Positions 6,226 to 54,131 of a stretch of 64,000 nt of DNA are shown piece after piece. The translations under genes and the position numbers were made by a program. Positions within the stretch are counted from its first letter, which is position 1, and every line of letters begins with the position of its first letter. The notes under the pieces were generated by a model. That model searched no databases. It saw only the letters and a program-made list of their open reading frames with translations, and was not told where the DNA came from. Source of the stretch: Dryococelus australis (taxonomy: Eukaryota; Arthropoda; Insecta; Phasmatodea; Phasmatidae); assembly GCA_029891345.1 (NCBI GenBank), contig CM056993.1, forward strand, positions 223,829,924 through 223,893,923, written 5' to 3'.

Positions 6226-6239
6226 ATTTGAGCATCAAT

Positions 6240-7060
6240 TTCGATTTTAATAAGTCTAATGATTCGAATGAAAGGAATTAATAACCTAAAATATTTACAG
6301 GGCTGTCTTTTCGAAAATATGCGAGTGAGCAACATAAAACACGTAAGTTTACATGGCCTACCATAGCACCACTTGTGTGAAAAATTGGCTGAAAATCGGT
6401 GAATTGGTTCCTAAAATATTGCCTAAAACCTCCATATTTTCCGTGGAGGACGGAAAATTTATGTATATATTAGCACATTCGATGATTCTATACTACCAGT
6501 ATACAAAATAAAGCAAAAATTGATTACATATTTTCGTAGATATGACATATTAAGGTAAAATTTTATTATAACAGCTATTCTGAAAATAAATGCTTGTCAC
6601 TTTAAAAATACATATTAATATGACCTACCGCAGTACAACTTCTTCGCCAAATCTGATAAGAATCGGTTGATTGTTTCTCGAGATATGACTTTAAAACGTT
6701 ATTTTTACTGTGGGGCTATCTTAAGAAATGGCAAAAAAAAAAAAAAATTATGCTCTGCGCAGACAAATTTGACGGTTGTAAATGATACTGCAACCATACA
6801 AAGTTGAGTTGAAATTTGTTTCGTAAGTAAAATATATCGAGCTAAAATATTTATATTGCCACCATTTTGGAAATAAGTTCCTAACCTACTTGAATAATAC
6901 CAATTTACACTATCTGCTGAAGAACTATTGGCTTGCCAAATTTGGTAGGAAATGTCAAATGTTTCCCTAGATATAAGATAAATCTTTATTTCTCATATGA
7001 AATGTCTTACAAAATGGCGGACAAGAAACGCACTGTGTAGATGTATTTGATAGTTGAAAT
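6240..7060. repeat. ~285-bp satellite-like modules, left block
   Basis: Three diverged modules can be aligned on the blocks TTTCTCGAGATATGAC (near 6675) and TTTCCCTAGATATAAG (near 6960), the CCTACC/ACTACTT-type block (6357, 6622, 6905), and ACCATTTTGGAAATAAG (near 6862; diverged near 6570). Spacing is 265-290 bp. The same modules resume in the same orientation at 23214-23705, showing that the 7061-23209 element was inserted into a pre-existing array. Confidence 0.65.
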
Positions 7061-8690
7061 CATAGACTAAATATGAGGTAGACCCGTCTCGCTGGCTGCG
7101 CACAACAAATCTCCATGTCCCAACATTGAACTGCTTTTCTGCCAACACGTCTAGCGAAAACGGCAAGGTTTACTATTAGATTAGAAAACTGATTTATAAA
7201 CAAATGATTCGAGGTGTATGTATACTTCGTCTAATCAATTTGTAATGTAGTCTGATTAAATTAAAACTGGCAAAACTATTTCATTCATATATAAGCGCTT
7301 GTCATTTAAAAATTAAGATGTAAACAAATACATTCATCACTGTGGACCATGTCACTTTAACAGTAGTAGTAAGGGCATGCCGGTTCTGGACCACTTTTGA
7401 TTAATTGGATTATCGATTCGAATGATTGGATTATCGATTTGAATTGTTGGATTATCGGTTTGATTAATCAGCCTAATTATTCCGATCAAATGATCGGATT
7501 AAGGATCCAATTATTTTCATCCGATATAATTAATCGGATTAAAATAAATTTAATTGATTGATTTATAAAATAAAATAAAAGTTTAACAATTTGTGTTATT
7601 TTATATTTGGTATGCATGTGCAAGAGTGTCATAATGGTGATGAGTAATTATCAATTTTTGGAGATCAGCAGTAGGAGCATCGATATTCACTCTTCTATGT
7701 CTGGTGGTCGACTGAGGTGGAGAGGTGTATCTGAAAGTATATATATGTATTGTGTTATAATTTTTATGAGTTAAATATTGTATTTAGGAGGGAGAGGGTG
7801 TTGTTGGGAGCAGGGCATTGGAGTTACTTCCCGTTTGTCATCTGGCAGGCGACAGAGGTGGTGGAGAGGGTCGGGAGCACTAAGAATACATGTCAGACAG
7901 TATATTGTATTACATGTAATGGCTGAATCAGACAATATTAATAAATAACGAAGTGAAATGAAATACATGCCAATGTATTTAATGATGACACATTACGAAC
8001 AGAACATATTTTATTACAAAGCAACAAAATACACATAACGAATGAGTAGCTAACCAGAATTAAATATTCTTTCTTTGGGAATGCAACTACCTTCACTGAT
8101 GGACTTACACAAAAAGAACGAGTTAATACTCAACGTGTATTGAACCACTTAACAAATCAATAAATATGATTTAGCCTGTTTATGACACATGTAACGAATA
8201 GACCTCAAATTCAAAATATTAAAGACTCCCAAAGCTATTTCCCTACCAATATATGTCAAAGAAACACGCGCATAACAAGTTGTAATGAATGAACAACACT
8301 CATAGATATTAATTTAAACACAGGAATGAAATGCTCAGAAGAATCAAGTAATGACAGTTATACATACAATGCAAACACAATGAAGTAATAAAAAACTGAC
8401 CAAGCAAAGTTGTGCTACAGCCCAAGAACCAAGGTGTCAGAAAACTTAGGGATGCAATGACTTAATAAAACGATTCCGAAAAAGGCATATGTAGAAAATT
8501 TATGTAAATATCATATCAATATATGTTAAAGAAATACAGTAAGTCCTACAACATGTTATGTTTGAATTACAAAACATAAATTAAACATAAAATATTGACT
8601 TTACCACCCCAGCAATATAGGTGTCATAAAAACTCTTTTGTAAAATCGAAAACTATGTTTCACTCTCATTGGCTCTCAGGTCTACAATGC
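7061..8690. repeat. Left terminal inverted repeat of the 16-kb element
   Basis: This matches 21770-23209 in reverse complement. Shared blocks include the GGATTATCGATT-rich segment (7400-7560), a GC-rich segment with GTGGTGGAG and CCCGTTTGTCATCTGGCAG variants (about 7790-7880), ATATGTTAAAG/TATTGAT-type AT-rich blocks, and CACCCCAGCAATATAGGTG near 8610. The left arm is longer by roughly 200 bp, from an insertion or a loss in the other arm near its outer end. Confidence 0.75.
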
Positions 8691-10230
8691 ACACAACGAA
8701 ATACCAGAAATGTTACCCCATTTCCACGAATACCTAACCACATGCTTTAAATTAATAATGCACAAAACCACTGTACCACTCTGTTTAGTATTTTTCCTAA
8801 CATATTTAAAAACAATTCACCACTAACCCACATGAAAACTTCCGTTAAACACAACTGCAGTCAGCTTACCGAGTTTCACAGTGTGTGGCGTACGAAAACC
8901 ACTACACTTATCAAAACATAGGTCGCCCTCAAAAACATAGCTCTCACTTTGCACTCACACAACTCAGCAGAACACGTTTATAAAATGTGCATTCGTAATT
9001 AGCAATATGATTGTGAAATGTAGTGTATGTTGTGAAGGAAAGGAGACAAGCACTCTGCCCAGCGGCCAGCATCCAGCCAGTCCAATATCTGCTGCACAAC
9101 TAAGCATCCAGACAGTCCAATCTCTGCCGCACATCTAGAAGAGTCCCGTTACCCTCCCCCCTCACTCTTGAGCACTGGAGCAGGATGCTACTGCCAGGGG
9201 TACGACTTCAATCCTTTGTGGAGAAAACCATTGGAAAAAAAATTTCAAACATCACATCTCAGCTGTCTTAGCCTGCTCACTCCTAGGAAATTTATAATTT
9301 AACAACAGACAAAATTAATTAAAACCAATATAAATATACAAGAAAAGAAATCACACTGAAATATATTCGGAGAAAAAGTATAAAATTACTTCCTTAACAC
9401 AATGAATTACGTCACAACTAATTTTAACAGCAGGAAATTTATCCATAAATATGACTAATCCGGCACAAGGTAATGTTACACGATTCCGTTACTTATATAT
9501 TATTTATGTTTGAAAAATACTTAAATGTCGTTTTGTAGCATAACTATTAGAAATACCTTAAACAATTTGTAAAATAAATATATCCAAATATGCAAAGAAA
9601 CCCGTTTTCCAAGTGCCAAAACCTATCACCCTACACTGATTTAATACAAATATATGTTCAAGATACATAACTCAAAGGTTTAATATATCTAACTAATACG
9701 ATTATGTCAGTTCCAAAATATGATATACAAACATGCATACATATTCATTTGTAACTTCATTCATACTTTTTAATATTATTTTATACCCAAGAAAAAATTA
9801 CTTTTTCTCCACCTTTGTGTGTAGAGTTCTCTACAAGACAAACAGTTCAAATATATTTGGTTATACCACATCCAAAGTTTTGTGTATGTGACAAATTCTG
9901 TCTGTAATACATCCCTTTACAAATGTATCAGTTAACCATAATAATTCTCCAATCCCTTAAATATTCTCACAAAAGTCTAAATGTCTTTCGATATACCAAC
10001 TATTATATAATATACCAGAAATATGTATGCATATGCGCTTATTCTATTTTGAAATACTAAGTATTGGCAATATAATATTAAATAAAGACTGTATACCATG
10101 TTTCCAACCTGATATTTTCTTGATAGGATTTGTAATATGGCTAATTTAACAATATTTCAACAAAATTTCCAAAGAGATCATATTTTAGGCAATTATTAAG
10201 GAAAATGGACGCCATTTTGGATGCGAGTAC
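8691..10230. other. Interior of the 16-kb element, AT-rich, no recognisable gene
   Basis: A 35-bp direct duplication beginning AGCATCCAGCCAGTCC lies near 9068-9137 within a GC-richer patch (9050-9200). Otherwise the stretch is AT-rich with no coding signal. Confidence 0.45.
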
Positions 10231-10238
10231 TATATAAG
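10231..10238 (+). promoter_or_regulatory. TATA-box candidate
   Basis: TATATAAG is followed within about 100 bp by a 29-bp tandem repeat and a short open frame. A TCAGT-type initiator at the canonical spacing is not evident, so support is weaker than for the three promoters at 13550-14742. Confidence 0.35.
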
Positions 10239-10331
10239 AAGGGAATAAATTAATTTTTCTCGGTGTAAAGTTAGCAGTCGCCAAGTTGAGATCGTAAACT
10301 GTGTCAGGCGTGCAACACATGAGTTGTGTAT

Positions 10332-10408
10332 TACATCAGTCATCACCACGAGGTTTGGATTACATCAGTCATCACCACAATGTTTGGACTACATCAGTCA
10401 TCACCAAG
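10332..10408. repeat. 29-bp tandem repeat, ~2.7 copies
   Basis: Units start at 10332, 10361 and 10390 with TACATCAGTCATCACCA. The repeat is nearly exact, so the expansion is more recent than the surrounding decay. Confidence 0.85.
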
Positions 10409-10671
10409 CCGTACAACAGGATTCAGCATAACCGAGACGTACATCTGTGGTCGACAGCGCAATCAGGTAATATGCATGATGGGCACTGCTGCGAGTATTG
10501 CGACCAAGAGTGTGTGCAAGTGTAAAACACAATTTTAGCGTACGAGCACACCAACACTTTGCTAAGACTGGACATTGAAGAAAAACTATTTACATTACCA
10601 AAGGAATTTTTAATTACCTTTACATCGCATGAAATTCTGTAGGTGTACCCTTTTCTTTTGGAAGAACTTAT

Positions 10672-10890
10672 GGCAGATGAAGATATAGTTTCATATCTCC
10701 CGTGTGATGGTTGCCCATACAGCGCTACTGCTTCCTTTAACAATTGAAATAAATTTCATTTGAGGAGAGACTGTGTTATACGCAGGTGGCAGCAAGTAAT
10801 TAAACTTATTAGTAATAATCCTCCCGAGTTACCAATGGACGATTCCAGGATCGATGAAGTCGATTCGGATGTAACAACGAAGATCCTGTA
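10672..10890 (+). pseudogene. Small zinc-finger-like coding remnant in the element interior
   Basis: An ATG at 10672 opens MADEDIVSYLP followed by a Cys-x2-Cys pair (CDGCP), as in one half of a C2H2 finger. A second open stretch ending at about 10890 is rich in Asp and Pro (PPELPMDDSRIDEVD). Zinc-finger genes are known passengers of insect Polinton-like elements, but this copy is broken and its assignment is tentative. Confidence 0.3.
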
Positions 10891-11162
10891 AACATATATA
10901 AATGTCTTGTAAATAGTGACAATAAATGTTATATCGCAATTACTTTCAACTCTAATGTAACCTTGTTTAATAAGAAGACACCCTAGCCATGATTTCTTAT
11001 GTGCAAGGATTTGAAAACCATCACAATAAGAATTTACTGTGAAAGAAGTGGCTATATCGTATTCAACTGACGATAATGGCACTAAAGTTATCAGCTTTAA
11101 ACCACCTCATCTGTGGTGTGTTTTAACTCATGAAATGCAAATGGCATTCCAACATCAAACAT

Positions 11163-11300
11163 ACTGTTGAGGGTACATGAAGAGGGCATTAATAAATGGT
11201 TATTCACACCGCTGTATGAACCTGGCATTGCGGTACACTTCAGCACAGGGCGAACAAGTATTGTATTGTCAACATAGCATGAACCCCCTCCACACCAAAA
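11163..11300. repeat. Direct repeat, copy A
   Basis: This matches 12566-12710 in the same orientation through GAAGAGGGC, TTAATAAATGGTTAT and TGAACCTGGCA blocks and ends at GAACCCCCT. The copies are about 1.4 kb apart and moderately diverged. Confidence 0.75.
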
Positions 11301-12267
11301 TTTAAATAAAGGTATTTAATTTTCATGAATATCTATAAATACAGATATGTGTTCTACGAGAACTGCACAATACTGAATACTTTACACACTAGTTCATATC
11401 TTCAAGGTGTGTTTTTTCCCACTTTAGCAAACTTGCATATTTCTCAGTTTTAATAAATGGTCAGTCAGTTGTTGTGAAGAATTTTGGTTGCTACCTTTAT
11501 ATTAATTCTTACAAGTTATTATTTCTATACTTTTCATGCAATCACTTGCTATAGTAAATTGTAGGTATAACCAAATTTCATTACTAGAAATATCATTAAT
11601 ATTATCAATCATTAATCTCACACATTTGTGTAGCTTAAATATTTGTGTGCTTAGTATTTTAAGAATCCCTTCCATTACAGCTCACAATATCGAATGATAG
11701 CTTCTTGCCAGCAGAGTAATTAATTTTTTTTGCATTTATTTAATATTATTACAGTAGTTTACTTATTACTACATTTCGATATCATCTTATCTCCAACTGT
11801 CCTTGTGACATTACGTATTAGATAACATACATAGTTCTTAGTCTTGAACCACAAAATATACATCTCTTTTCGTATATTCTTTCAAATGCAGTTTTTTTTA
11901 CACAAACCTATTGAATACTATAGTTGATATTTGTACCAATGAGTAGTATTATTGTTCCATGTCTTATGTATATGTTTCGCATAAATGTCTCATAACAATT
12001 AGAAAAAAATAGTATTTGTTGTAACAGGAAGTATTTTTTCTTTACATGATTCCTTGTTTAAAAATTAACCATCATTTTGAAGTCATATACATTTTTTAAA
12101 TTGTACTAAACTTACTATGTTTTACATTTACGTTCTCAACATTATTCATTGCTGACACACAAAGTCTTGTTAGGGAACCACCTATCATCAAGAAAAGGTT
12201 ATCGCGTGTGCAACTTCTTCCATGGTGGCGACTGCTGCATGAACGCAAGAAAGTCAGTTGTACTCAC

Positions 12268-12306
12268 CCTCGACTTTGCCGGTCCAAGGTTCGCCGCAGC
12301 CGCCAT
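12268..12306 (-). CDS. Candidate first coding exon (13 codons)
   Basis: On the minus strand an ATG at 12306-12304 opens MAAAANLGPAKSR and runs in phase 0 to a strong donor, AGG|GTGAGTA, at 12268/12267. The surrounding ~150 bp are GC-rich in an AT-rich setting. The phase matches the exon at 5626-5721, which also starts in phase 0 on the same strand, so the two could be joined by splicing. The catch is that this exon lies inside the 16-kb element. It could be a captured host fragment, an element exon, or chance. No function is assigned. Confidence 0.35.
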
Positions 12307-12565
12307 GTCACCTGTCACAGCGATTCTGTGGACCCACAATGTTTACGACCACCTGCTCGAGGACAGTGAGGCAGTTCCTGTACCCTAGCTATCCTTCTTT
12401 CTCTCTGTTAATTCCCATCGCAACATAATTTCCCTCCTGTTTGGAAGACTTTCCATATTTTCCTTTTCCCACTACCACTGTAAGAGATATACACATAACA
12501 ATTTCGCTGATGTTGGCCGGACTTCTCTGCATGGTGAGAGCACCACGCATGTAAAGATAAAGGGA

Positions 12566-12710
12566 GATGTTGAGGGCACATGAAGAGGGCCTTAATAAAT
12601 GGTTATACACACTGCTCTATGAACCTGGCAGTATGGTACAATTTTCAGCAGAGAGCGAAAAAGCATTGTAATGTCCATGTAGCACGAACCCCCTACACCG
12701 ACACAGGAAG
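12566..12710. repeat. Direct repeat, copy B
   Basis: This is the second copy of the 11163-11300 segment. The two copies bracket the GC-rich exon-like patch, so they could be the ends of a nested insertion, although no LTR-like termini were recognised. Confidence 0.7.
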
Positions 12711-13043
12711 TGACCGGTGAGCTCACCACAAAACACCACGACGAGAGAGTCAAGTGGAAGTGCTGACAAGAGCAGGTGCATCGGAGGAGCTTCCACAATG
12801 GGCCATCAACAAGAGGAGTTTGGTACAGTGAGTGTGCCGCCGTCGTGATTCGTATAGCCAGACACAGCCTCCGACAGCAAGTTCAGTTTGGGAACAGTAC
12901 AGTTAGATTGACTTCAGAAGGCATGGGTTAGTTATAAAATTTAATACTAAATTAAATATAAAATAGTTATAATATTTTTATATATTTCGATAGTTCTCTG
13001 TTGCAATTGACATTGCTGTTATTGATTAAATATAATTGTATTT

Positions 13044-13416
13044 ATGCCAGGACTGAGCAAAAACCCTTTTTCTGTATATGAATTACACACCTTCTGTAAT
13101 TATATATTAGTAACACCCTCAACCCAAAGGTCATGGTATAATTTGTATGAGATTACGTACAAATCAGTTAGTGGAATGAGTAGGGCTTTTCCATGCCCCA
13201 GACCCATAACAATACGAACTACATTTTTTGAATTGGGAGTTAGGTGTTTCAGAATATGAAGACATATTTAAACACATAAATGATGCATTCCTCAAAGACT
13301 ATCCTGGATATATACTGATAAAAATGCAAAAGGACATAATGAAAATGTTAACTAATGCAGAAGTTTTGAAGATAAGACGAATGTCCAAGTATTATTTATC
13401 TTGTACAACATTATAA
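13044..13416 (+). pseudogene. Unidentified coding remnant of the 16-kb element
   Basis: Overlapping open frames have protein-like composition, for example the stretches YEITYKSVSGMSRAFP and SEYEDIFKHINDAFLK. No family was recognised. The remnant ends just before the first of the paired promoters. It is broken. Confidence 0.35.
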
Positions 13417-13549
13417 TATTCACCAATGTTCGAACAAAATGTTTGGTTCACAGTGTAAAAGCAAGGTGTTAAGAGAATATATGTACCAACACCCATGGCA
13501 TGTTTAACTTTAACAATATCTGTTTGTTACATCATAGTGTGAGAAAAGG

Positions 13550-13585
13550 TATAAATACAGGAACATTTGCAACTCCTACATCAGT
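13550..13585 (+). promoter_or_regulatory. TATA plus TCAGT initiator, promoter 1
   Basis: TATAAAT at 13550 and TCAGT at 13581, with 33 bases from the first T of TATAAA to the A of the initiator, match the arthropod core-promoter arrangement. Confidence 0.55.
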
Positions 13586-14190
13586 TTACTTACATTACTG
13601 AAATAGAGAGGTTCAATCCAGCAAAGTTTTACGAGAGCATAATATGAGGATGTAGGAAAGTGTGCTTTAAGTGTAAAACCAATACGCCCTACCAAATACA
13701 GCTCTGCAATTGAGAAAAACATTGGATTTTCTCACAAACTAGTTCGAAATATACATATGAAGAACGGAGCTTTTGTGATGAAGATGACTGCCTTGTGTTC
13801 AACATGTGGACCAATACGGAACTGCCATGTACTCAAACTGAACTAAGTTTCAGAGTTCGACATGAAGAAATAACAAAGTATTCAGGATATAGACATATAA
13901 AGAATTAATAGATGAAGGAATTCTGTGATATTTCTACAATACAGACTAAAGCCTGCAATAATAAGCAAACATCACTCAAATCCAAGGAAGTAGTCGACAT
14001 CTAGTCACACCTCATGGAATGTGGAAATGTAAGGTATGGCTAAGCAACATATGTGCCTGCAAAATTGATTTAACAAAGATATCACTGGGAAAATACTACA
14101 ATTTAAGAGGGCGATACAACTATTCAGTGATGCACTACTGACTAAATGTTGGAACATTTGCAACTAATTTGAAAATTATGTAAATATATC

Positions 14191-14227
14191 TATATAAAGG
14201 AAGGATCATATATACTGGAATGTCAGT
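14191..14227 (+). promoter_or_regulatory. TATA plus TCAGT initiator, promoter 2
   Basis: TATATAAAGGAAGG at 14191 and TGTCAGT ending at 14227 have the same 32-base spacing as promoter 3. An ATG lies a few bases downstream, at about 14232. Confidence 0.6.
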
Positions 14228-14419
14228 TACGATGGAGAGATTAAGTCGACAGTAAACTACGCAATTAGTACTCCGGGATACAGGAGAGTATGGTTTCAAG
14301 AAGAAGATACACCATTACAGATTAAAATTTGAAATGGGGAAGAGCATTGGCATTTCTCCTTAATTAGTCTTACATGTACTTTATAAGTTTTCTATGTTTG
14401 TTATGGACAACAGTATGCT

Positions 14420-14653
14420 TTGTATAAGCTATGTCCTGACAATAAGTTACACTGCAGTGTAAATAAACTAGCATGTGAAGCTAAGCATCATGAAATTCAT
14501 ACCATGCAAGGAATTGAATACATAAGGCAAAAGGTATGCTGTTCTATTCCTACAGTGTGGAGCGAACAATGTGACAACAAGGAACATGTTATTCACATAG
14601 GTGACCAAGAATTAACATCTCCCTGTGGTATGTGGGAATACAAAGTTTTTTAA
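14420..14653 (+). pseudogene. Unidentified open frame of the 16-kb element
   Basis: A 77-codon frame with several Cys and His residues (for example KLHCSVNKLACEAKHHEIH) lies between promoters 2 and 3. The pattern is not a standard zinc finger and no family was recognised. Confidence 0.3.
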
Positions 14654-14705
14654 AACAAGAATGTGTAATTAGCCATTGAGAAGCAGTGACATCATGATTC
14701 GAACC

Positions 14706-14742
14706 TATATAAAAGGAAGGTATAAGGTAATAAACTGTCAGT
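14706..14742 (+). promoter_or_regulatory. TATA plus TCAGT initiator, promoter 3
   Basis: TATATAAAAGGAAGG at 14706 and TGTCAGT ending at 14742 are nearly identical in layout to promoter 2, so the two look like copies of one another. Confidence 0.6.
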
Positions 14743-15312
14743 CATTGTTAGTGTGTTCAAGCCTGCATATGTTTACAAAGTCCTGCAATTAGTATACAGA
14801 AGAGGATTCTTTAAACCTTTCGACAGAGTTTTACAAGTTCAAGCATGCAATGATATTGAACATTGGTGCTATACCTTCTATGCTAGTATGTGAGGTATTT
14901 CCATCCCGAGAGTGAGCTGCCATATACACTAGAATTCACCATGGAACCACTATTTGCTAGATGGAAACCTGCAATGGAGACATCCACAACTTTATTTTCG
15001 AACAAGGAAGTTTAGTATTTCGGTATATGTGCAACATTTATACATGTGAAGTAGCTAATTCAGAATAATGTTCACACCAAATGGCAAGTACTCGTTAATT
15101 GAACATGGTTTGTATGCTGAAAGATATTAACTACCATATTCACATGACAGATATTAATTTTAAATGTTCATATTGGCATGGCTATATGTTAAGATATAAT
15201 AGAAAATTAATTTTTTAATCTAGTTGAATTGAATGTATTAGTTCAAAAAGTCGTGGAAGTTTATGTAGTCCATACATGTTAGAGAAAAAATGTAATTTAA
15301 GACTGGTGGTGA

Positions 15313-15990
15313 AAATACTGTGACAACATTTTGTGAGGAAGAAGAGAGTTTGAAACAGGTTAGTTACACAGGAAATAACAGTAAACAATTTCAGTATTTC
15401 CAAGAATGTAACAATGGTATACATAATCTTGATTATGATCACAAGGAGTTTGGTTACTTATTGCTTATTGGGTGTGTCTCATCAAAGTGTTACGTACATC
15501 CAGCTGTGAAACTTGGAAAATTAAAGTTTAACCCACAGTGACTGTTCAATCTAAAATTGCAGAGGAGGTTTCCAATATTATAGACATTGTTTTCTAAGAA
15601 CTGCTCTCAGTTGAATATTAGATTGCATACTATCAACATGTTTTTTCACTGAGGAAACCATAATGTTATTGTAAAACCAGGGAAGTCTAATGTATACTAT
15701 TTGTTTTGGTTTAACAAGCTTTTGAAAGAGTTTATGGAGACCTGTGACAGTGTTTTTCATTTCCGGGTGGTTTACTTTCCGTTAGGGAAGAAAAAGTTCA
15801 CAAATTTATTCAATGTACTGACACAACAAAATGTCCCGTGTTCTACATGACTGCAACTACTCCTCTTATCGCCAGCATTGAAGTTGCTCACTCACAATAT
15901 GTTGAAACCTACCCAGATATACTTGAAAGTGTGGTTTTACAATCGCCTGACAAAAGATATTTGTATTCAAACTGATCCTCAGAGGAATAA
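15313..15990 (+). pseudogene. Unidentified coding remnant of the 16-kb element
   Basis: Several open stretches have protein-like composition, including 15320-15541 (with FGYLLLIGCVSSKCYVHP). No domain was recognised. The remnant is broken and is followed by a repetitive AT-rich tail (16080-16330) and an AATAAA-type signal near 16330. Confidence 0.3.
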
Positions 15991-16079
15991 GTCTGGACAT
16001 AAGAAACACTCCCTCCTTGAAAGTACTCTTTAATAACAGGATATAGATCCAATACTTAAAAAGTGTGTGAAAACAGTGT

Positions 16080-16340
16080 TTAGTGCGCTCACAAACAGCC
16101 AGTATTATATAACTTGGATAATATTTGGTATGTATGTTTTGAGAAATTCTGTATATACTTTGTGCAAAATTTTATATGACTGTTTTGAGACATTTTGTAT
16201 ATATGTTGTGTAACATTTGATATGTCCATTTTGTGACATTCTATATGTTGTGTACATTTTCAGACATACTGTATAATGTTCAGTTCTTATCAGTGTTTCA
16301 ATACATATTATTTGTATGTTTCTAATTTTGTAAATAAATC
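16080..16340. repeat. Degenerate ~55-bp AT-rich repeats
   Basis: There are several imperfect copies of a unit containing TTTTGAGACATTTTGTATAT followed by GTTGTGT. They sit just after a coding remnant, where a 3' untranslated region would lie. Confidence 0.5.
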
Positions 16341-17739
16341 TGTTTTAAAATTAATTGATTTGTGTGTTATTGTGTCTATAACATCTCCCTTTACAAAATG
16401 TGAAACACACTGCAAATATGACCTTTAGAAACAAAAAGTAGCAGTGTAAAAATTTAACTTCGGAATGAAAATGAGCTTATAAATTCAAGTATGTTGGGCA
16501 AAGGCTTTTAAAATAAAAGTCTCCATTCTCATCTCGCATGTTACATTGACGTGGTGGAGTTTTTGGGAACACAAGAGGTATAGGTTAGGTTTTCTGAATG
16601 GAAGGTTAGATGAATATTCACTGGGTTTGGGCGCCAGTGCAGAGCACGAGAATAAAGGGGGCCGTGAAGGCCGAGAGCCCATGTGGCCTCCCTTGGTGTC
16701 CCGACGTAAATCCTGCAGCAATCATTCTTGTTTCGATGATTTTGCAGTTCCAATGAGCTATAATTATCATGCCTAGTCTATTAGGGGCTGTAGGCCTCCC
16801 CTAAAACACCATTAATTATGTAGTGGGTTGTTTCGGCCACCCAACACAGCTAAATATTTGCCGTACATTTTAAGAGAAAATAATTTGCAAATTAAATGGT
16901 TATACCAACCAGTAAATAATTCGCATGCTCTATTCCTTGAATGTAGCACTTAATTTATGAACCCTCGTTTGAGGCACAGAATAAGTACATCTCCACTTTA
17001 TCTCGGAGAGCTCTTGAAAAGTACGAAAATAGCACAATGCCTAAATGATTCGTAAGTTTCAAAGTTAAGGTTCACCTGTGTACAAAATGGTCCAAACTAT
17101 GGGGTGGTGCATGCTCCGGGATAATGAAAGACTAAAAAGGTTCCATTACAAATAAATTTAACATGGCAGATACATTATCAATTCAAAAAGTTGAAGTCCA
17201 AGGAGCGGGCACTCACGTACGATCAGCCCCTCTGGATATGATGCCGCTACAGAAAAACGTTAGCATGGGAGCCGGCCATCCTGGTGCAAGCTTCCCCCAT
17301 TATGTCAAATGTCCCATTATTCGGGAATAAAATATTATACGAAGTGTAAATGGGAGTGACAATGATACCAGAATTATTAAACAATACGTAATGCATTAGA
17401 AGTTAGATAATAAAAACATTCAAGGAGAAAATAAAACATTACAATAGCCAATTTTTGGTTAATATGTAACTTGTCCTTGTGCCTCACCCTTGACCTATAA
17501 ATGTACATATTTCGCACAGTGCGTGTCCCCCTTGTATAGTATCCCCCTCGCCACATTCATTTGTGTGACTTTCATATGAATAATAATTTATGTTAAATTA
17601 CTCTGCATTACATAAAACACTATAAGAAGAAATAAGTATGGTTTAGCATGCTTTTTGTAAGTATATGGACAAAGTCTGTGGACGTACTATGGCCTGCGGC
17701 CTCTGTCACCTGACTCTGCTAGCCAGTCTTTAGGTTATG
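16341..17739. other. Interior of the 16-kb element, no gene recognised
   Basis: A GC-richer patch at 16540-16830 has open frames on both strands, none with a known motif. The rest is AT-rich. Confidence 0.4.
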
Positions 17740-18318
17740 CTAAGGTGGCAAGTACAGTTTCTTACTTGCTCCTCTACTGTAATGTCTTGAGTTACCTTTG
17801 AAAGAATCTACATGCTCTTTCACAGCTTTCTGTATATGTTGAAGTTTTTTACTATGTACGTGGTTGTACTTCCCATGCTTATCTTTTGGTGCCGCACCCA
17901 AAGCCTTTCCTGACTTCTGTAAGGTTTGTACTCCTCGTGTTTTGATACCATGAATGGAAACAAATGCTTTAGAACAAACAGGTACCTCTATTATTTTTTC
18001 ACCATCTGATACACACACTTTGTAGGTATAACCATTGTTATGGAAGTTTGTATGATTCACATCATGTCTAGCTCTACATTGTTTTACCTGATTAATAGAC
18101 ATCATACCAAATAAGTACAAATTATGTTCACCATATATCTTAATTTTACTAAACTGTTTGATTTTTAGCAGTCTCTGTCCGGGAGAAATATTATCAAAGC
18201 ACTTTAAACTCTTACATTTGCATTCCAGGACAGTATCATGAGATGATAGATGTATTTTCACCATAACATCAATCATGCGACCATATTTGATCCTTTTTGA
18301 AGAATTACCTGTGAGCAC
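17740..18318 (-). CDS. N-terminal part of an arthropod multicopy, transposon-associated protein
   Basis: The frame has 192 codons and runs a little upstream of its first ATG. The order of motifs matches a family I remember as present in many near-identical copies in insect genomes: a CKCKSLKCF cysteine segment near residues 34-42, a middle segment ending in VPVCSKAFVSIHGI, and a C-terminal segment with KRGK-like KHGKYNH and HYSRGASKKLYL. The family usually continues with a longer conserved second half, absent here, so this is a partial copy. Function is unknown and no domain name is offered. It is the longest intact frame inside the 16-kb element and runs opposite to the polymerase remnant. 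Confidence 0.55.
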   Translation of the reverse strand: MLTGNSSKRIKYGRMIDVMVKIHLSSHDTVLECKCKSLKCFDNISPGQRLLKIKQFSKIKIYGEHNLYLFGMMSINQVKQCRARHDVNHTNFHNNGYTYKVCVSDGEKIIEVPVCSKAFVSIHGIKTRGVQTLQKSGKALGAAPKDKHGKYNHVHSKKLQHIQKAVKEHVDSFKGNSRHYSRGASKKLYLPP

Positions 18319-18433
18319 AATGTTTGGAACATCTTCCGTTTCACTTTCTTCACCTTCTATGGTTACACTTTTCTCATCAAGTCACAGCAACACATTATTT
18401 ACACACTTTGACTGACAGCTGATATGTAGTGTT

Positions 18434-18610
18434 GTAACAACATAAACAAACACAACAGAAGTGACCATAGATATGAAAACAGGTTAATTAGCACTTGGTA
18501 ACTGTGAAACACAAACAATGATGCCAGAAATGGCCATAGATATTAAAACAGGTTAGTTAACATTTGGCAGTGAAACAGTTTAAACAAAGATACCAGAAAA
18601 TCACCATATA
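18434..18610. repeat. ~85-bp tandem duplication
   Basis: Two clear copies and one partial copy share AGATAT(G/T)AAAACAGGTTA and GATRCCAGAAAT-type blocks. Confidence 0.65.
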
Positions 18611-18879
18611 TATTATTTAAACAGACAAGGTAAACCTTGGCATTGACAACCAGAATTTTTCTCCTGTAAGATTTGATAACAAGCGACCGATATATTGTAA
18701 ATTTCTGTTATGCATTGACAATTATTGTTTTTGCTATGAAACACCGCTGGTAAATTCTACACACTCTCTGCTTTGCATTGCTACTTTTAACTCATTTTAG
18801 GCGAAACAGTGTCATTCATCATTTTTGCAATGGGCTCTTCAAATATAAACAAACAAGTAAAAAATATAAATATGTGTAA

Positions 18880-19165
18880 AACCCTTGTTAATGTTTCCTG
18901 TTTATCAATAGCAATCGACGTCCCCTAGTGAGGTGGGGCACTCTAGGGCATTAAAGAAAACACAACTCACTATAACCAATACAACTGTCAACACAACATG
19001 TAATTACCCTCATAGTATGATAGATTAAAGTTTCCTGTGTATCAATGGCAATTGACGTCCCCTACTGGTATGATGCACTTTAGTGCATGGAGGGAACAAG
19101 TCATTATTATACAAACAAGTAAAACTGTAAAAACACAACACACAATCAATTTCCCTCTCATTATT
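18880..19165. repeat. ~130-bp direct duplication upstream of the polymerase remnant
   Basis: Copies near 18892 and 19030 share TTTCCTGTNTATCAATNGCA, GACGTCCCCTA and CACAACNCAC blocks. The GACGTCCCCTA core is palindromic around GACGTC. Confidence 0.7.
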
Positions 19166-19399
19166 ATTTATTCCGTGCACAAAACTTGCGTACACAGCAC
19201 TTACGTTAACATAACACACGAGCTATTTATTAACACAATACTACAATAAAATATGACATGAAAACTGCACTTCCAAATGTAAACAAACATGACGTGGCAT
19301 GAGGACACTATAGCACACGCGTGACGAATGCAATGTCGCACAAAAATAATATTAAAAAAGGCAATTTAAAAAATAACAATAACATTACACTTCGCTGCA

Positions 19400-19905
19400 T
19401 TGATGCACTACATGAGTACGAAGTTCCCTCCACCAGTCTTGCACCTCTTATATTGTGACACCGATTCTTTGATATATTCTATTGCTTGCGATGATGTTTA
19501 TAAAATAATTGCCCCAGATTTAAAAGTGTGGTTTGATACATCTAATAACATGTCCGATAATCCACAAGAATTCTCCCACAAGAACAAAGGACATACCGGA
19601 GTTATGAGGGACGAATGAGCCAGCCGCATTGTCACACACTTTGTAGGTTTATGTCCCAAGCATTACGCATACATTATTGTGAATGAGCAGTGTATACATA
19701 ATGCGAAGGGTGTAAAATCTAAGGTGTTGCAAAAATTCCATTATATGGATTATCGTGATTACCTCGATCGTTGCACCAGGGTTTTGGGAACCAAATATCA
19801 GTTTCATTCACATAGTCATAAAGACTATACTGAATGTGTGACCAAAGTGGTATTATCGGGGTTAGATGATAAGCGCTTCATTGAGCCGGATGGAGTATAA
19901 ACTTT
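19400..19905 (+). pseudogene. Type B DNA polymerase remnant (Polinton-like), C-terminal part
   Basis: The stretch carries the polymerase C motif as LLYCDTDSLIY, followed by the segment DDVYKIIAPD and then, downstream, NAKGVKSKVLQKF. This order is typical of the C-terminal palm and thumb region of protein-primed family B polymerases carried by Polintons and their viral relatives. The palm, thumb and terminal-protein parts expected upstream were not found in the window. It is treated as a broken fossil gene that once served replication of the element. Confidence 0.75.
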
Positions 19906-20659
19906 ACCCTGGGGGCACTACAGAATCCCTACTAAAAATTTTTCACAACTCTGTACTCACTACCACAATAAATAAAGCCATGCCACCTACAAGCCGCAAC
20001 CCAACTGCTAGACTGCCATACCAACGATGAATATTACCGCCAGTAGCCCACACCACGACTAGCTGCAACACCACCTGCTGCTTATGTACTCCTCATCGCC
20101 TTCGAAGAGAGGACCCCTTCCGCTCGATACGACATTCCAAACTGCTTTGAACTCTCAGCATGCTTTTGTTTGCCTGACCAGTCAACAACTGCCTGTCTTC
20201 AAGAACAACTTCAACAACTGCCTACTTCATCATTAACATAGAACCTGTATCTTCTACATTACCCATGTGGTCCTGTATACCTTACTACCAAAGTTCTTCA
20301 TCACCATTAATATCGAACTAAGAAACGGTCTCCGCTACATTAACCCCTGTGGTTCTATATATCTTCACAGCATAGGAGCACATAACATCTTGAAAACCAT
20401 TACAATCAACGAATATAAGACGTCTCTACATTTACAGTTTTACAGTGTTAAAAAATCAACCCTGGATTCCCCTACAAATATTGGAGTGCGTGTGGGTCAT
20501 AGTTGGTGTGTGCTTGTCAATAAAATGAAGGTAAAATTTTACCCGAATGTGACCATTTGACGCCCTATAAGAGTGCCCATGTAAATATTTTAAGATTAGT
20601 TTTTAAAAGGGACAGCCTTTAGTGCGATGGTGTGAATACTTAGTTATGTTTTTTTGTAC
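19906..20659 (+). other. Region downstream of the polymerase remnant
   Basis: It contains a 97-codon open frame (20267-20560) without a recognised motif. The sequence is GC-richer from 19970 to 20250 and then returns to AT-rich. Confidence 0.35.
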
Positions 20660-20800
20660 ATAATTGTTTTAAAAATTGCTTATGTTCGAAAAGAAATATG
20701 TTTAAAAATTGACAAAGTTTGAAAAGAAATGTGTTTTAAAAATTGCAATGTTTGAAAAGAAATGTGTTCTAAAAATTGCTAATGTTTGAAAAGAAGTGTT
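20660..20800. repeat. ~40-bp tandem repeat, four copies
   Basis: Copies of AAAAATTGC plus ATGTTTGAAAAGAAATGTG vary by a few bases. It lies about 0.8 kb after the polymerase remnant. Confidence 0.7.
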
Positions 20801-21039
20801 TTTGTTTTGTAAATAACAATTTTTTTTGTTCATAAGGATTTAGAAAAAAAAAACAAAGATCTAAGAAAATAAAATTCAACAGTAATGGGATTTATGTGTT
20901 TTGTTATTTATTTAATATTGCTGTGTCATTTAGGTGCAATATATTGTGTTCTTAAATGTGAATGAATGGTGATTATGTGAATCAGAAGATAATCAAATGA
21001 AAAATGGAGCGCTTGGTTATTTTTTAACTACATTATACA

Positions 21040-21240
21040 ACAGTATCATGATTAAGTGAAGAGATTTGGACGGCTTGAGAGGTCTTGAGAGCCGATGAGG
21101 GTGATTGAGAATGTAGCAGCCCTGAAATAAAAGGGCGGGAGAAGCCCAAGAAGACCTATGAACAGGTAAAAAAAATTTTGCGACCCGGCTGGAGATTGAA
21201 CCAGGATCGCCTTGGTGAGGCGAACAGGCCTCCCACACTT
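21040..21240 (-). repeat. tRNA-headed SINE inserted in the 16-kb element
   Basis: The minus-strand head has the B box GATCCTGGTTCAATCTCC (about 21191-21208) with GGCCTGTTCGCCTCACC upstream. The body carries CACCCTCATCGGCTCTCAAG, shared with the SINE at 606-850. Its position inside the element shows that the SINE came later. Confidence 0.7.
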
Positions 21241-21769
21241 AAATAAATGTTACATACAAGACTGAATTTATCTGTTTTTTATACGAATATATTGATATAT
21301 TCAATGTAAACTTTCGTTGAATTGATAAGAAAATGATAAAGTTTTTTTTTTTGGTGGAAAATATGTTGGACAGCAGTGGTTGTGAGAGAAATACAGTTAG
21401 AGGAAGACAACTGGGTTTAAAATTTAACAACCTCTCCCGGGACAGCGAGACTAAAAAAATTCTAGCTTGACGGACTTCGATCTGCAACACCAGGTGATGA
21501 GGTGCAGTGACTTTAAACTAAATTATCATGAAACACTTTCCAAGAAAAGGAAGATGTTTTTATAAGGGAACACGACATATTTTAACAGGGTAAAACACAT
21601 AATATTATCAATAACTTGACACATCGGATGTTTTCCATTTATAAACTTATAAAATAAAATTTGCTGCGGCTGTGAGTCAACATAAGGATTTCAGCTGCTA
21701 CATCCAGAATTTGGTATCACACAAGATTCGAAGACCTAAAGACATTTAATTTACACATTTGGTTATCCT

Positions 21770-23209
21770 ATACCTGAGAGCCAATGAGGGTGAAACGTAC
21801 TTTTCGATTTTACTAAAGAGTTTTTATGTCACCTATATTGCTGGGGTGGTAAAGTCATTATTCCGTGTTTAATTTATATTCTGTACTTCAAGCACTGTGT
21901 TTTGTAAGACATAGAGTATTTGTTTGACATATATTGATAGTATATTGATATAAATTTTGTACGTGTGTGTTTTTCGGATTCTTTTTACTAAGTCATTTCA
22001 TTCCTAAGTTTTCATGATATCCAGATTCTTTGGCTGCAACATACCTTTTTGTTTGGTCAATATTTAATTAATTCGTTGCATTTGGGTTGTATGTATAATT
22101 GTATTAAATCGTTCCTTGATTCTTCTGGGCATTTTGTTCCTGTGTTTAAATGAATGTCTATGAGCGTGGTTCATTCGTTTCGAGTTGTTACGTGCATGTT
22201 GTAGGACTTAGTGAATTTCTTTGTCATATATTGGTAGGGAAATAACTTTGAAAGCCCTTGATATTTTGAATTTGTGGTCCATTCGTTGTGTGTGTCGTAC
22301 ACACGCTAAATAATTTTTATTGATTTGTGAAGTGGTTCAATATATGTTTAGTCTTAACTCGTTCCTTTTGTGTAAGTTCATGAGTGAAGGTGGTTGGGTT
22401 CCGATAGTACGAATATTTCATTCTGGTTAGCTACTCATTCCTTATGTGTGTTTTATTGTTTTGTAATAAAATATGTTGTTTGTAACATGTCGCCGTTAAA
22501 TATATTGGAATGTATTTCATTTCGCCGAAATACATTCTATAGTATACTTCATTATTCATTAATATTCTCGAATTCAGCCGCTGCACATAATAGAGTATAC
22601 TATCTGACATCGCCTAAGGCAGGAGTGTCTTGGTGCCCTGACACCCCCTCCACCACCTCAGTCGACTGCCAGATGGCAAACGGGAAGTAACTCCTATGCC
22701 CTGCTCCCGACAACACCTTCCCCCCCTCAATACTATATTTAACCCATAAAAATTATAACACAATACATAATACAATACATAACCTGCAGATACACCTCCC
22801 CACCTCATCCGACCACCAGACATCCAAGAGTGAATATCGATGCTGCTACTGCTGATCTCCAAAAATTAATAAATACTCATCACTATTATGACACTCTTGC
22901 ACATACATACCAAATATAAAATGACTCAAATTTTTTTAATTTAATTTTTTATGATTATTTAGTTAATTAATTTAATCAGATTTATTTCATCGGATTAAAA
23001 TCATTTCAACCTTAATCCGATCATTTGTTCATTAATCCGATCGTTTGATCGGATTAAGTAAGTGGATTAATCAAACCGATAATCCAATCAATTAAATCGA
23101 TTATCTAATTAATCAAAAGTGGCCCGACAGTTGTGTGCCTTTGTGGTAGGTAAAAGTTGAGTACATGCGCAGAAGATGAATAAGCGGTCTACCTCATATT
23201 TAGTCTATG
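21770..23209. repeat. Right terminal inverted repeat of the 16-kb element
   Basis: This is the mirror copy of 7061-8690. The outer end reads TTTAGTCTATG at 23209. The AT-rich TTAATCCGATC segment and the GC-rich CACCACCTCAGTCGACTG segment are both present. Confidence 0.75.
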
Positions 23210-23213
23210 GTTG

Positions 23214-23705
23214 TAATATATATTGTTAGCATACAAAATTAGGTTTCAATGATTACATGGTTTCGATGATAAAGTTTGCTTAGCTAAAATGCCTACGTGA
23301 TCGCCATTTTGAAAATAAGGGTCCGACATACATAAAACTTACAATTTTACATCACCTGGCACAGTACTACTTGCTTGCAAAATTTATTTGGTAGGAAGAG
23401 GCAAAAGGCTTCTCGAGATATGACATAAAAATGTATTTATTCATGTGGCACTATCTTAAAAAAAATGGCTGGCGAAAGTGGCCATGTGATGGCATGTATG
23501 ATACATATAACATATGCTTTAAGCATACACCATTTGGTCTAAATTGGTTAAATGTTATAATAGACATACCAAATAAAATTATAATATTTGTATGGCCACC
23601 ATTTTGAAGATAAGTGTCTTATGACGTCTAGTTACTTACGTTTAACTAAGCTGTCATAGTATTACTTACATACCAAAATGAGTGAGAATTTTTTTGATAG
23701 TTTTC
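23214..23705. repeat. ~285-bp satellite-like modules, right block
   Basis: About 1.7 modules in the same orientation as 6240-7060. CTTCTCGAGATATGAC (near 23408) and GGCCACCATTTTGAAGATAAG-type blocks (near 23590) mark the unit. Confidence 0.65.
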
Positions 23706-23785
23706 GAGATACACACACACATACACACACATTATATATATATGTGTGTGTGTGTGTGCGCGCGCGCGCCTGAGTGTGTGTGTTT
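23706..23785. repeat. Compound microsatellite AC-AT-GT-GC
   Basis: Runs of AC, then AT, then GT, then CG, then GT. The AC and GT runs on either side of the AT core make an imperfect palindrome. Confidence 0.9.
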
Positions 23786-41595: not shown

Positions 41596-44500
41596 ATGAT
41601 GGACTCCTGCCAACTGACTGCAGCACACTGACTCCAGCTGACTGACTCCAACCAATTGTCTCATACAGACTCGCTCCAGCCGACCGACTTCAGCAGAATG
41701 ATTTAAAGCAGACTGACTCCATCAGACGGACTCCAGAAGACTGACTCCAGCAGACTGACCCCTGGAGACTGACTCCCGGGGACAGACTCCAGCCGACTGA
41801 CTTCCGAAGTCTGACTCCAGCGGGCTAACTCCCGGAAACTGACTCTAGTAGATTGACTCCTGTATATTGACTCCAAACGACTGACTTCCAGAGAATGACT
41901 CCAGTAGACTGACTCCCAGAGACTGACCCAAGTAGATTGACTCCTGTAGATTGACTCCAGCCGACTGACTTCTGCAGACTGACTCTAGCAGATTGACTCC
42001 TGTAGTTTGACTCCAGCCGACTGACTTCCGGAGACTGACACTAGTAGATTGACTCCTGTAGATTGACTCCAGAAGACTGACTTCCGCAAAATGACTCCAG
42101 CAGACTGACTCTAGTAGATTGACTCCTGTAGAGAGACTCCAGCCAACTGACTCCCGGAGACTGACTCCAGCCGACTGACACCCGTAGACTGACCATAGAA
42201 GATTGACTCCAGTAGATTGACTCCAGCCGACTGACTTCCGGAGAATGACTCTAGGCGACTGACTCCTAGAGACTCACTCTAGAATATCGACTCCTGTAGA
42301 GTGATTCCAGCCGATTGACTTCCGGAGACTGACTCTAGTAGATTACTACTGTGGATTGACTCCAGACGACTGACTTCCGGAGACTGACTCCAGCCGACTG
42401 ACACCCGGAGACTGAATCTTGAAGATTGACTCCTGTACATTGACTCTAGCTGACTGACTCCCGGAGAGTGACTCTTCTAAATTGACTCCTGTAGATTGAC
42501 TCCAGTCGACTGACTTCTGGAGAATGACTCTAGTTGATTAACTCCTGTTGATTAACTCCAGCCGACTGACTCAAGAGACTGAATCCAGACGACTGACTCA
42601 TGGAGACTGACTCTAGAATATTGACTCCTGAAGATTTAATCCAGGCGACTGACTTCCGGAGAATGACACCAGCCAACTGACTCCTGGAGACTGACTCTAG
42701 TAGAATGACTTCTGTAGATTGACTCCAGACGACTGACTTTCAGAGACTAACTCTAGTACATTGAATCCTATAAATTGACACCAGACGACTGACTTCCGGA
42801 GAATGACTCCAGTTGATTAACATTCGCAGTATGACTCTAGAAGATTGCTCCTGAAGATTGACTTCAGCTGACTGACTTCCGGAGAATGACTCGAGCCGAC
42901 TGACTCCCACAGACTGACTCTAGTAAATTGACTCCTGTAGATTGACAACATCCGACTGACTTTCGGAGACTGACTCCAGTCAACTAACTCCTGGAGAAGA
43001 CTCTAGAAGATTGACGCCTATAGATTCACTCCAGCCGACTAACTCCCAGAGAATGACTCTAGAAGATTGACTCCTGTAGAATGACTCCAGCCAAATGACT
43101 TCCGGTGACTGACTCTAGTAGATTGATTCCGGTAGAGTGACTGCAGCCGACTGACTTTAGAAGACTGACTCCTGCCGACTGACTCCCAGAGACTAACTCT
43201 TGAAGGTTGAATCCTGTAGATTGACTCCAGTTAACTGACTTCCGAAGAATGACTCTAGCCGACTGACTCCCGGAGACGGACTCTAGAAAATCGACTCCTG
43301 TAGATTGACTCCAGCCGGCGGACTTCCGGAGATTCACTTTAGCCAACTGACTCCCAGAGACTTACTCTAGAAGATTGACCCCTGTAGATTGAATCCAGCC
43401 GACTGACTTCCGGAGAATTATTCTAGCCGACTGACTCCCGGAGTCTGACTCAAGAAGATTTACTCCTGTAGATTGACTTCCGCCGACTGACTTCCGGAGA
43501 CTGACTCCAGCCGAATGATTACCGGAGACTGACACTACAAGATTAACTCCTGTAGATTGACTCCTGTCGACTGCCTTTCGGAGAAAACTCCAGCCGACAG
43601 ACTCCCGGAGACTGACTAAAAGAATGGCTCCTGTAGACTGACTCCAACCGACTGACTTCCAGAGAGTAACTCCAGCGAACTAACTCCCAGAGACTGGCTC
43701 TAGAAGATTGACTCCTGTAGATTGACTCCAGCTGACTGACTTCCGTAGAATAACTTCAGCCGACTGACTCCTGGAGACTGACTCCTGTAGACTGACTCCA
43801 GCCGACTGACTTCCGTAGAATGACTCCAGCCGACTGAATCCCGAAGACCGACCGACTCTAGTAGATTGACTCCTGTATATTGACACCAGACGACTGCGTT
43901 CTAGAAATGACTCCAGTGGACCGACTCCCAGAGATTGACTCTAGTAAATTGACTCCTGAAGATTGACTCCAGCCTACTGACTCCCGGAGTCTGACTCTAG
44001 TAGATTGACTCCTACAGATTGACTCCAGCTGACTGTCTTCCGGAAACTGACTCTAGCCGACTAACTCCGGGAGACTGACTCTAGAAGTTTGACTCCTGTA
44101 GATCTACTCCAGTCAACTGACTCCCAGAGAATGACTCTAGAAGATTGACTCCTGTAGGTTGACTCAAGACGACTGACTACCGGAGAATGACTTAAGCCTA
44201 CTGACTCCCAGAGACTGACTCTAGTTGATTGATTCCCTTAGATTGACTCCAGCCAGCTAATTTCTGGAGAATGACTACAGTAGACTGACTTCCGGAGACT
44301 GACACTAGTAGATTGCCACCTGTCGATTGACTCCAGCAGACTGACTTTTGCAGAATGACTCCAGCCATTTGACTCCCGGAGACTGACACTAGTAGATTGA
44401 CTCCAGACGACTGACTTCTGAAGAATGACTCCAGCAGACTGACTCCTGGAGACTGCCTCTAGTAGATTGACTCCTGAAGATTGACCCCCACGACTGACTT

Positions 44501-46290
44501 CTGGAGAATGACTCCAGCTGACTGACTCCCAGAGTCTGACTCTAGTAGATTGACTCCTGTAGATTAACTCCAACCGACTGACTTCCAGAGACTCTAACCT
44601 ACTATCTCCCAGAGACTGACTCTAGAAGATTTACTACTGTAAATTGACTCCAGCTGACTGACTTCCGAAGAATGACTCTAGCCGACTGACTCCCATAGGC
44701 TGAATCTAGTAGATTGACTACTGTAGATCGACTCCAGCTGACTGACACCAGCAGACTGACTCTATCAGGCTGGCTCCAGCTGACTTACTAAAGCAGACTG
44801 ACTCCAGCCAACTGACTCCAGGAGACTGATACTAGTAGATTGGCTACTGTAAATTTTCTCCAGCCGACTGACTTCCGGAGAATGGCTCCAGTAGACTGAC
44901 TCCTGAAGACTGACTCTAGAAGATTGACTCCGGTAGATTGACTCCAGCCGACTGACTCGTGGAGACTGATTCTAGCAGACTGACTCCTGTAGTGACTCCA
45001 GTCGACTGACACCATCAGACTGACTCTAGCATACTGACTCTATTTGGATGACTCTAGCAGACTGACTCCTGTAGATTTATCCCAGCATATTCACTCAAGC
45101 AGACTGACTACTGTCGACTGATTCATGCCGACTGACTCCAGCAAACTGACTCCAGCCGACTTACTCAAGCAGATTGTCTTCCGGAGACTGAATATTGTAG
45201 TTTGTCTCCTGTAGATTGACTCGAGCCGACTGACATCTGGAGAATGTCCCCAGCTGCCTGACTCCTGGAGACTGACTCCAGTAGATTGACTCAGGTAGAT
45301 TGACTCCATACAACTGAGTTTTAGAGGATGACTCCAGCCGACTTACTCCCGGAGACTGACTCTAGTATATGGATTCCAGTAGACTGATACCAGCCGCCTG
45401 ACTTCCGAAGAATGACTCCAGTCGACTGGCTCCCAGAGACTGGATCTATTAGTTTGACTGCTGTAGAGTGACTCCAGCTGACTGACTTCTGGAGAATGGC
45501 TCCAGCCGACTGACTCCCGGAAACTGACTCTAGTATATTGACTCCTGTATATTGACTCCAGACGACTGACTTCTGGAGAATGACTCCAGCAGACTGACTC
45601 CTGGAGACTGCCTCCAGTAGATTGACTCCTGAAGATTGACCCACGCGACTGACTCCCGGAGACTGACTCTAGATGATTGACTCCAGTAGATTGACTCCAG
45701 CCGACTGACTCGTGGAGACTGACTCTAGTAGAATATCTCCTGTAGAGTGACTCCAGTCGACTGACACCATCAGACTGACTCCACTTAGCTGACTCCAGCA
45801 GACTGAATCCTGTACACTTATTTTAGTCTATTCACTCCAGCAGACTGACTACTGCTGACTGACTCCTGCCGACTGACTCCAGCAGACTGACACCAGCCGA
45901 CTTACTCAAGCAGATTGTCTTCCGGAGGTTTAATATTGTAGTTTTTCTCCTGTAGATTGACTCCAGCCGACTGACTTCCGGAGAGTGTCTCCAGCTGACT
46001 GACTCCCGGAGTCTGACTCTAGTTAATTGACTGCTGTAGATTGACTAGAGCTGACTGACTCTAACAAACCGACTCTTACAGACTGAATGACTTAAGCAGA
46101 CTGACTCCAGCACACCGACACCAGCACACCGACACCAGCACACCGACACCAGTAGACTGACACCTACAGATTGACTCCAGTTGATTGACTCCTACAGGCT
46201 GACTCCAGCATACCCTATCCTACAGTCTGATTCCCACAGTCTGACTCATATAGACTGACTCCAGCATACTGATACCTGCCGACTGACTCC
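41596..46290. repeat. 4.7-kb minisatellite: 14-bp unit in 84-bp higher-order units
   Basis: The base unit is TCCAGCCGACTGAC and its variants. Six variants in a usual order (TCCAGCCGACTGAC, TTCCGGAGAATGAC, TCCAGCCGACTGAC, TCCCGGAGACTGAC, TCTAGTAGATTGAC, TCCTGTAGATTGAC) make an 84-bp higher-order unit repeated some 50 times, about 330 base units in all. The order is looser at both margins, and 46104-46152 has a purer run of CACCAGCACACCGA. Because 84 is a multiple of three, long minus-strand frames encode 28-residue repeats such as SQSTGVNLLESVSG; these are by-products of the array. Confidence 0.93.
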
Positions 46291-53625: not shown

Positions 53626-53884
53626 GACATGCCAAATTTCTTTGAGTGGCTGAATACTAGACATGTAGGACACATGTGTGCTTAGTATAAGTATAATTTT
53701 TATCTGGACTCTGGTAGGTTGAATTAGGATTTTTTTTTCTTTTGTAGGTTAAGTTATGTTAGTTCGACAGATGGTAAGAATGTTTGTGTTGTGGATTGGT
53801 CTGGACTATAAATTTCTTTGGTATGGTTGGGTGATAATATGTTTTACAGTTTATCTGTCATGCGATTGTTGGTGTAAGTTTCAT

Positions 53885-54131
53885 GGTGTGGAAGACAGTA
53901 TGTGTATGTCGGCGAGTCCTCTAATGATGTGGACGACAGTATGTGTATGTCGGCGAGTCCTGTAATGGTGTGGACGACAGTATGTGTATGTCGGCGAGTC
54001 CTGTAATGGTGTGGACGACATTATGTGTATGTCGGCGAGTCCTGTAATGGCGTGGACGACAGTATGTGTATGTCGGCGAGTCCTGTAATGGCGTGGACGA
54101 CAGTATGTGTATGTCGGTGAGTCCTGTAATG
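53885..54131. repeat. 41-bp minisatellite, six units
   Basis: The unit contains GTGTGGACGACAGTATGTG and ATGTCGGCGAGTCCTGTAAT. The CGGCGAGTCC anchor lies at 53910, 53951, 53992, 54033 and onward at exactly 41-base steps. Units differ by one to three bases, so it is young. Confidence 0.95.

Follow-up and report, generated by a model that had tools for sequence, protein, structure and literature searches.

Maverick/Polinton elements are thought to copy themselves by means of a protein-primed family-B DNA polymerase (PolB), with their linear DNA being integrated by a retroviral-type integrase. The Polinton integrase is treated in PMC2836005, in the portion of that source available to us. According to the sections of PMC8097293 consulted here, vertebrate Mavericks have ends that read (AGT)2//(ACT)2 or (AG)3 and are flanked by 6-bp duplications; their lengths range from 12.7 to 24.6 kb and their arms from 46 to 1447 bp. 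We analysed a stretch of 64,000 nucleotides from the insect Dryococelus australis (GenBank assembly GCA_029891345.1, contig CM056993.1, positions 223,829,924–223,893,923 of the forward strand), referred to below as the window, the positions of which are used throughout. An earlier reading made from the sequence alone, here called the original prediction, had described 7061–23209 of the window as a single polymerase-bearing element with long inverted arms. In our view, this 16-kb stretch almost certainly consists of two ordinary mobile elements, one nested within the other: a decayed Maverick/Polinton of 15,761 bp (7365–23125) inside a common, short miniature inverted-repeat transposable element (MITE). 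The parts of this arrangement are as follows.

7061–7364, plus strand: left part of the MITE, the host of the insertion, the last six bases of which are the left copy of the Maverick target duplication (genome search and copy alignment)
23126–23209, plus strand: right part of the MITE, the first six bases of which are the right copy of the Maverick target duplication (genome search and copy alignment)
7053–7060, plus strand: left 8-bp target duplication of the MITE, GTTGAAAT (flank comparison of MITE copies)
23210–23217, plus strand: right 8-bp target duplication of the MITE, GTTGTAAT (flank comparison of MITE copies)
7359–7364, plus strand: left 6-bp target duplication of the Maverick, AACAGT (overlap of the MITE halves)
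23126–23131, plus strand: right 6-bp target duplication of the Maverick, GACAGT (overlap of the MITE halves)
7365–7387, plus strand: left end of the Maverick, outermost 23 bp (AGTAGTAAGGGC...), absent from the right arm
7388–8684, plus strand: left long terminal inverted repeat (BLASTN self-alignment)
21769–23125, minus strand: right long terminal inverted repeat (BLASTN self-alignment)
19370–19900, plus strand: remnant of the C-terminus of a family-B DNA polymerase, with one in-frame stop (match to the open reading frame of a longer relative)

The outer ends of the stretch match one another in inverted orientation at 26 of 27 bases (7058–7084 compared with 23186–23212), the outer 24 bp being identical, and the octamers that flank 7061 and 23209 agree at seven of eight positions. 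On both counts the original prediction was accurate. It had also taken 7061 and 23209 to be the exact ends of one large element, and here the genome searches lead elsewhere. With 7061–7560 as the query, 40 of the 3835 first-look candidates were scored; this gave 40 matches, and the 39 that lie outside the window are all confined to query bases 1–309. The corresponding search with 23100–23260 gave 41 matches (40 of 1794 first-look candidates scored), of which the 40 outside the window are all confined to query bases 20–132. We aligned both window pieces with the 16 genome copies that had been assigned loci. All 16 are uninterrupted over the junction, with no arm sequence between, and 7061–7364 and 23126–23209 together make up a single dispersed MITE, about 383 bp long, the inverted ends of which measure 24 bp (CATAGACTAAA...). 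Duplications of 8 bp, such as GTTGNAAT, are perfect in six of the 16 copies, match at seven of eight positions in two and at six of eight in one. The octamers of the remaining seven are unmatched in the aligned frame; the CATAGACT left end is no longer visible in four of these (L012, L013, L015 and L016). For L011, shifting the left end outwards by one base gives a match of nine out of nine, the flanks of this copy being themselves MITE sequence. Because MITE copies elsewhere carry 8-bp duplications, we interpret the octamers in the window as the duplication of the MITE, to which the ends at 7061 and 23209 also belong.

Duplications of 8 bp are described for hAT elements (PMC3517528) and for most P element insertions (PMC4168063), in the parts of these two sources that were available. 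The window MITE resembles the MITEs of these groups in that it is short and has many copies, its inverted ends measuring 24 bp and its duplication 8 bp. Its sequence features fit membership of a superfamily with 8-bp duplications, which may be either hAT or P. The GT....AC leaning of several of the MITE duplications recalls what we take to be P-type targets, and could serve as a lead.

The two MITE halves in the window overlap by exactly six alignment columns, AACAGT on the left and GACAGT on the right. GACAGT is present once in 15 of the 16 uninterrupted copies (L016 has GACTGT), and a continuous MITE results when the host flanks are joined at the overlap. Since the halves overlap by six columns at this point, the large element must occupy 7365–23125. 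The original prediction had treated the arms and the outer ends as one unit, and had suggested an unusual branch on account of the 8-bp duplication and the CATAGACT end; the outer ends are found elsewhere without the arms, an outcome that the prediction itself had named as refuting it, and both of the unusual features are those of the host MITE. The large element's own duplication is 6 bp long and its left end starts with AGTAGT, as the prediction had expected of an ordinary Polinton. This 6-bp duplication is best supported in the window itself, owing to the MITE host. Sister-copy duplications were read at four fetched loci that hold both ends, and at one of these, L079, the duplication is perfect (CACATA/CACATA, 6/6).

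Inverted arms of 1.4–1.6 kb had been predicted; the arms do exist, but they are slightly shorter. BLASTN aligns 7388–8684 with 21769–23125 in a single alignment of 1369 columns, with 78% identity counting gaps and an E value of 0, which gives a left arm of 1297 bp and a right arm of 1357 bp (1.30 and 1.36 kb). The MAFFT alignment of the arms contains 1286 ungapped sites with 82.6% identity, corresponding to a Kimura two-parameter (K2P) distance of 0.200. Relatives of the left arm are found on several chromosomes (69 matches, among them the two arms of the window itself; of 582 first-look candidates, 40 were scored), and several of them stop at the same end point amid unlike flanks, as judged by eye. 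At its left end, and at this end only, the large element of the window starts with AGTAGTAAGGGC (AGTAGT) at 7365. The right arm is without its outermost 23 bp, and the 6-bp duplication is kept directly beside it; these bases may have been lost after insertion, or the end may already have been shortened when it was inserted. The end motif AGTAGTAGGGGC is present, with at most three mismatches, in 18 of 20 further fetched loci, the chance rate estimated from shuffles being 0.22 per 1001 bases and 0.28 per 801 bases. L044 has one match to the motif with two mismatches, which was equalled by 49 of 200 shuffles. No duplication was obtained from L043, from L044 or from two right ends on C1, and a proposed pairing of L031 and L022 as the two ends of one copy on C17 was dropped as their flanks are unlike by eye.

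We also note four very short foldback elements of 207–319 bp, each consisting solely of two Maverick ends, namely L079 (C7:160544594–160544958), L080, L081 and L082. The L079 foldback measures 207 bp and has AGTAGTAGGGGC-type ends, and the flanks of L080–L082 and L088 appear similar by eye. These foldbacks could conceivably be Maverick-derived MITEs integrated by the Maverick machinery, some of them inside palindromic host repeats (L080–L082 and L088), but we hold this interpretation only tentatively and consider it somewhat more doubtful than not.

Two polymerase pieces, at 19370–19615 and 19619–19897, lie in the same frame and are split by one stop. The second piece, of 93 amino acids, has matches at all of the 150 genome places that were scored, the window included (150 of 6731 first-look candidates). 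At L116, a locus known here from its polymerase open reading frame (ORF) alone, this ORF of 423 amino acids matches PF03175 (DNA_pol_B_2) with an E value of 1.2e-11 and 44.7 bits, compared with a cut-off of 25.8, and aligns to window positions 19409–19759 with 65% over 117 amino acids (tblastn). Through L116 the window remnant is linked to PF03175, a family-B polymerase domain. A matching polymerase stretch (45 of 70 residues identical) is also present in L051, an arm-bearing copy on C2. The PF03175 profile matched the genome 54 times (91 of 6287 first-look candidates scored) and had no match in 14 control genomes; given the number of candidates, the 3.4-Gb genome may be very rich in fragments of Maverick-type polymerases. 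Pfam placed none of 18 window ORFs, the polymerase pieces among them, over its curated cut-offs; nothing exceeded the cut-off in NCBIfam, and Rfam gave no match at gathering scores over the whole window. One polymerase piece found no match in a PDB sequence search, a profile of eight such pieces returned one irrelevant PDB match (E value 1.7), and one polymerase ORF used as a query had no match in a phage collection.

The inverse identity of the outer 24 bp and the match of the octamers at seven of eight positions would, taken by themselves, suit a single element of 16 kb that ends in CATAGACT, duplicates 8 bp and represents a distinct Polinton-like branch. However, the outer ends occur without arms in a continuous MITE about 383 bp long, the relatives of the arms in other copies end at AGTAGTAGGGGC and the octamers are a duplication of the MITE type; nothing in our results supports a distinct branch, the probability of which we regard as vanishingly small. 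It might also be supposed that the MITE is an internal-deletion derivative of the large element, with CATAGACT as the true end of the latter. Deletion derivatives are common among DNA transposons, and the MITE and the large element do share their ends in the window copy. This supposition is nevertheless extremely unlikely to be correct, given that the 16 aligned MITE copies cross the junction without arm sequence, that the break in the window falls at one 6-bp word occurring twice and that arm relatives start at AGTAGT beside flanks that do not look MITE-like by eye.

A further question is whether the large element could be something other than a Maverick, namely another integrating element that carries PolB and has long inverted repeats. 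The C-terminus of PolB is the only gene part recognised in the window, and the integrase and ATPase matches are weak and come from other copies. A tblastn search with ten fragments at an E value of 0.01 found no gene remnant in the window apart from PolB, and thus neither integrase nor ATPase. The rve integrase-core match of L050, from a copy that shares both arms, has an E value of 7.5e-5 and 23.4 bits, under the cut-off of 32.6, and the Pox_A32 ATPase match of L049, also from a copy with both arms, is likewise under the Pfam cut-off (E value 0.016). When ten polymerase pieces taken from other parts of the genome were compared with Pfam, one exceeded the PF03175 cut-off, four matched the family below it and five did not match it. 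These points weigh against identification of the element as a nested Maverick, as do several concerning its duplications and ends. The 6-bp duplication in the window matches at five of six positions. L080 matches at three of six; L082 has two possible left ends, giving three or one of six; a pair on C5 (AGTTCT/AGTTTA) matches at four of six by eye; and L081, with CTATAG/CTATAG (6/6), is ambiguous because the sequences on its two sides form an inverted repeat. Within three mismatches, AGTAGTAGGGGC was not found in L089 and L094 of the 20 fetched loci; the end motif was not seen in L043, nor by eye in L029, L034 and the right ends of two copies on C1. On the other side, the (AGT)2 left end, the 6-bp duplication, the arm length and the size all fall within the published Maverick range, and L050, from an arm-bearing copy, has an integrase-core match, albeit one below the cut-off. 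We consider a non-Maverick element to be very unlikely. The large element shows a 6-bp duplication, an (AGT)2 end (on the left only), long inverted repeats together with the appropriate length, and PolB; because these constitute Maverick anatomy, we assign it to Maverick/Polinton, and the kinship put forward in the original prediction holds.

Three stretches of repetitive sequence inside and around the nested elements are listed below.

17735–18686, minus strand: dispersed repeat inside the large element, with a 213-amino-acid ORF at 17740–18381 (genome search)
6237–7060, plus strand: dispersed repeat around the MITE, left part, with units of about 270–280 bp (genome search)
23210–23711, plus strand: dispersed repeat around the MITE, right part, in the same orientation as the left (module comparison)

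Same-orientation satellite modules had been predicted outside both arms. Modules of the same orientation are indeed present there, with a period of about 270–280 bp and 58–64% identity between the two sides, but the repeat family from which they come is dispersed. Of 6529 first-look candidates in a genome search with the left module, 40 were scored, giving 46 matches; the long matches are mostly 73–78% identical and spread over many chromosomes, and Tandem Repeats Finder (TRF) at its default score listed no tandem array at the flanking modules. With the modules spread over many chromosomes and no array listed there by TRF, a local satellite array around the element is rejected, and the MITE sits instead in a dispersed repeat. 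The stretch 17735–18686 is a separate dispersed repeat (53 matches; 40 of 92 first-look candidates scored) with long copies that are up to 87% identical; it meets a second repeat at 17400–17742, and its minus-strand ORF matches no Pfam family at an E value of 1. Elsewhere in the window, TRF reports a long, diverged and GC-richer minisatellite at 41602–46291 (unit of about 14 bp, 335 copies), with higher-order periods of about 164–167 bp, and a 41-bp tandem array at 53883–54131 (6.1 copies, 96% matches).

The arrangement is best explained by a history of three steps. The MITE of about 383 bp would have entered the dispersed repeat with units of about 270–280 bp. An ordinary Maverick/Polinton then inserted into the MITE at GACAGT, duplicating those 6 bp. 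The copy has subsequently decayed: its arms have diverged by about 10% each, 23 bp are missing at the right end, other repeats lie inside, and the C-terminus of PolB is the sole recognisable gene remnant. The nesting and decay, the overlap of 6 bp, the motif at the left end and the link to PolB are observed; we infer where the outermost layer belongs in the succession, how the element was copied and that an integrase inserted it. The MITE differs from the majority of the 16 copies by a K2P distance of 0.107, a point value with no error estimate, and the distance of 0.200 between the arms corresponds, again with no error estimate, to about 0.10 for each if the arms were alike at insertion. Because these two values are about equal, the nesting is chronologically plausible. 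The original prediction's description of the copy as old and broken also holds.

The nested interpretation does away with an apparent exception among Polintons, marked by CATAGACT ends and duplications of 8 bp, and shows that nesting inside a MITE can mimic a new transposon branch. Since the MITE fixes the empty site, the Maverick duplication is readable even in a decayed copy. The element is a decayed member of the already known Maverick/Polinton kind in an informative nested setting. Compared with the vertebrate Mavericks, as far as the available part of PMC8097293 describes them, it differs in being decayed, in the 23 bp missing from its right end and in having only a PolB fragment recognised. 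It resembles them in its AGTAGT end, its 6-bp duplication, its arms of about 1.3 kb, its length of 15.8 kb and its PolB.

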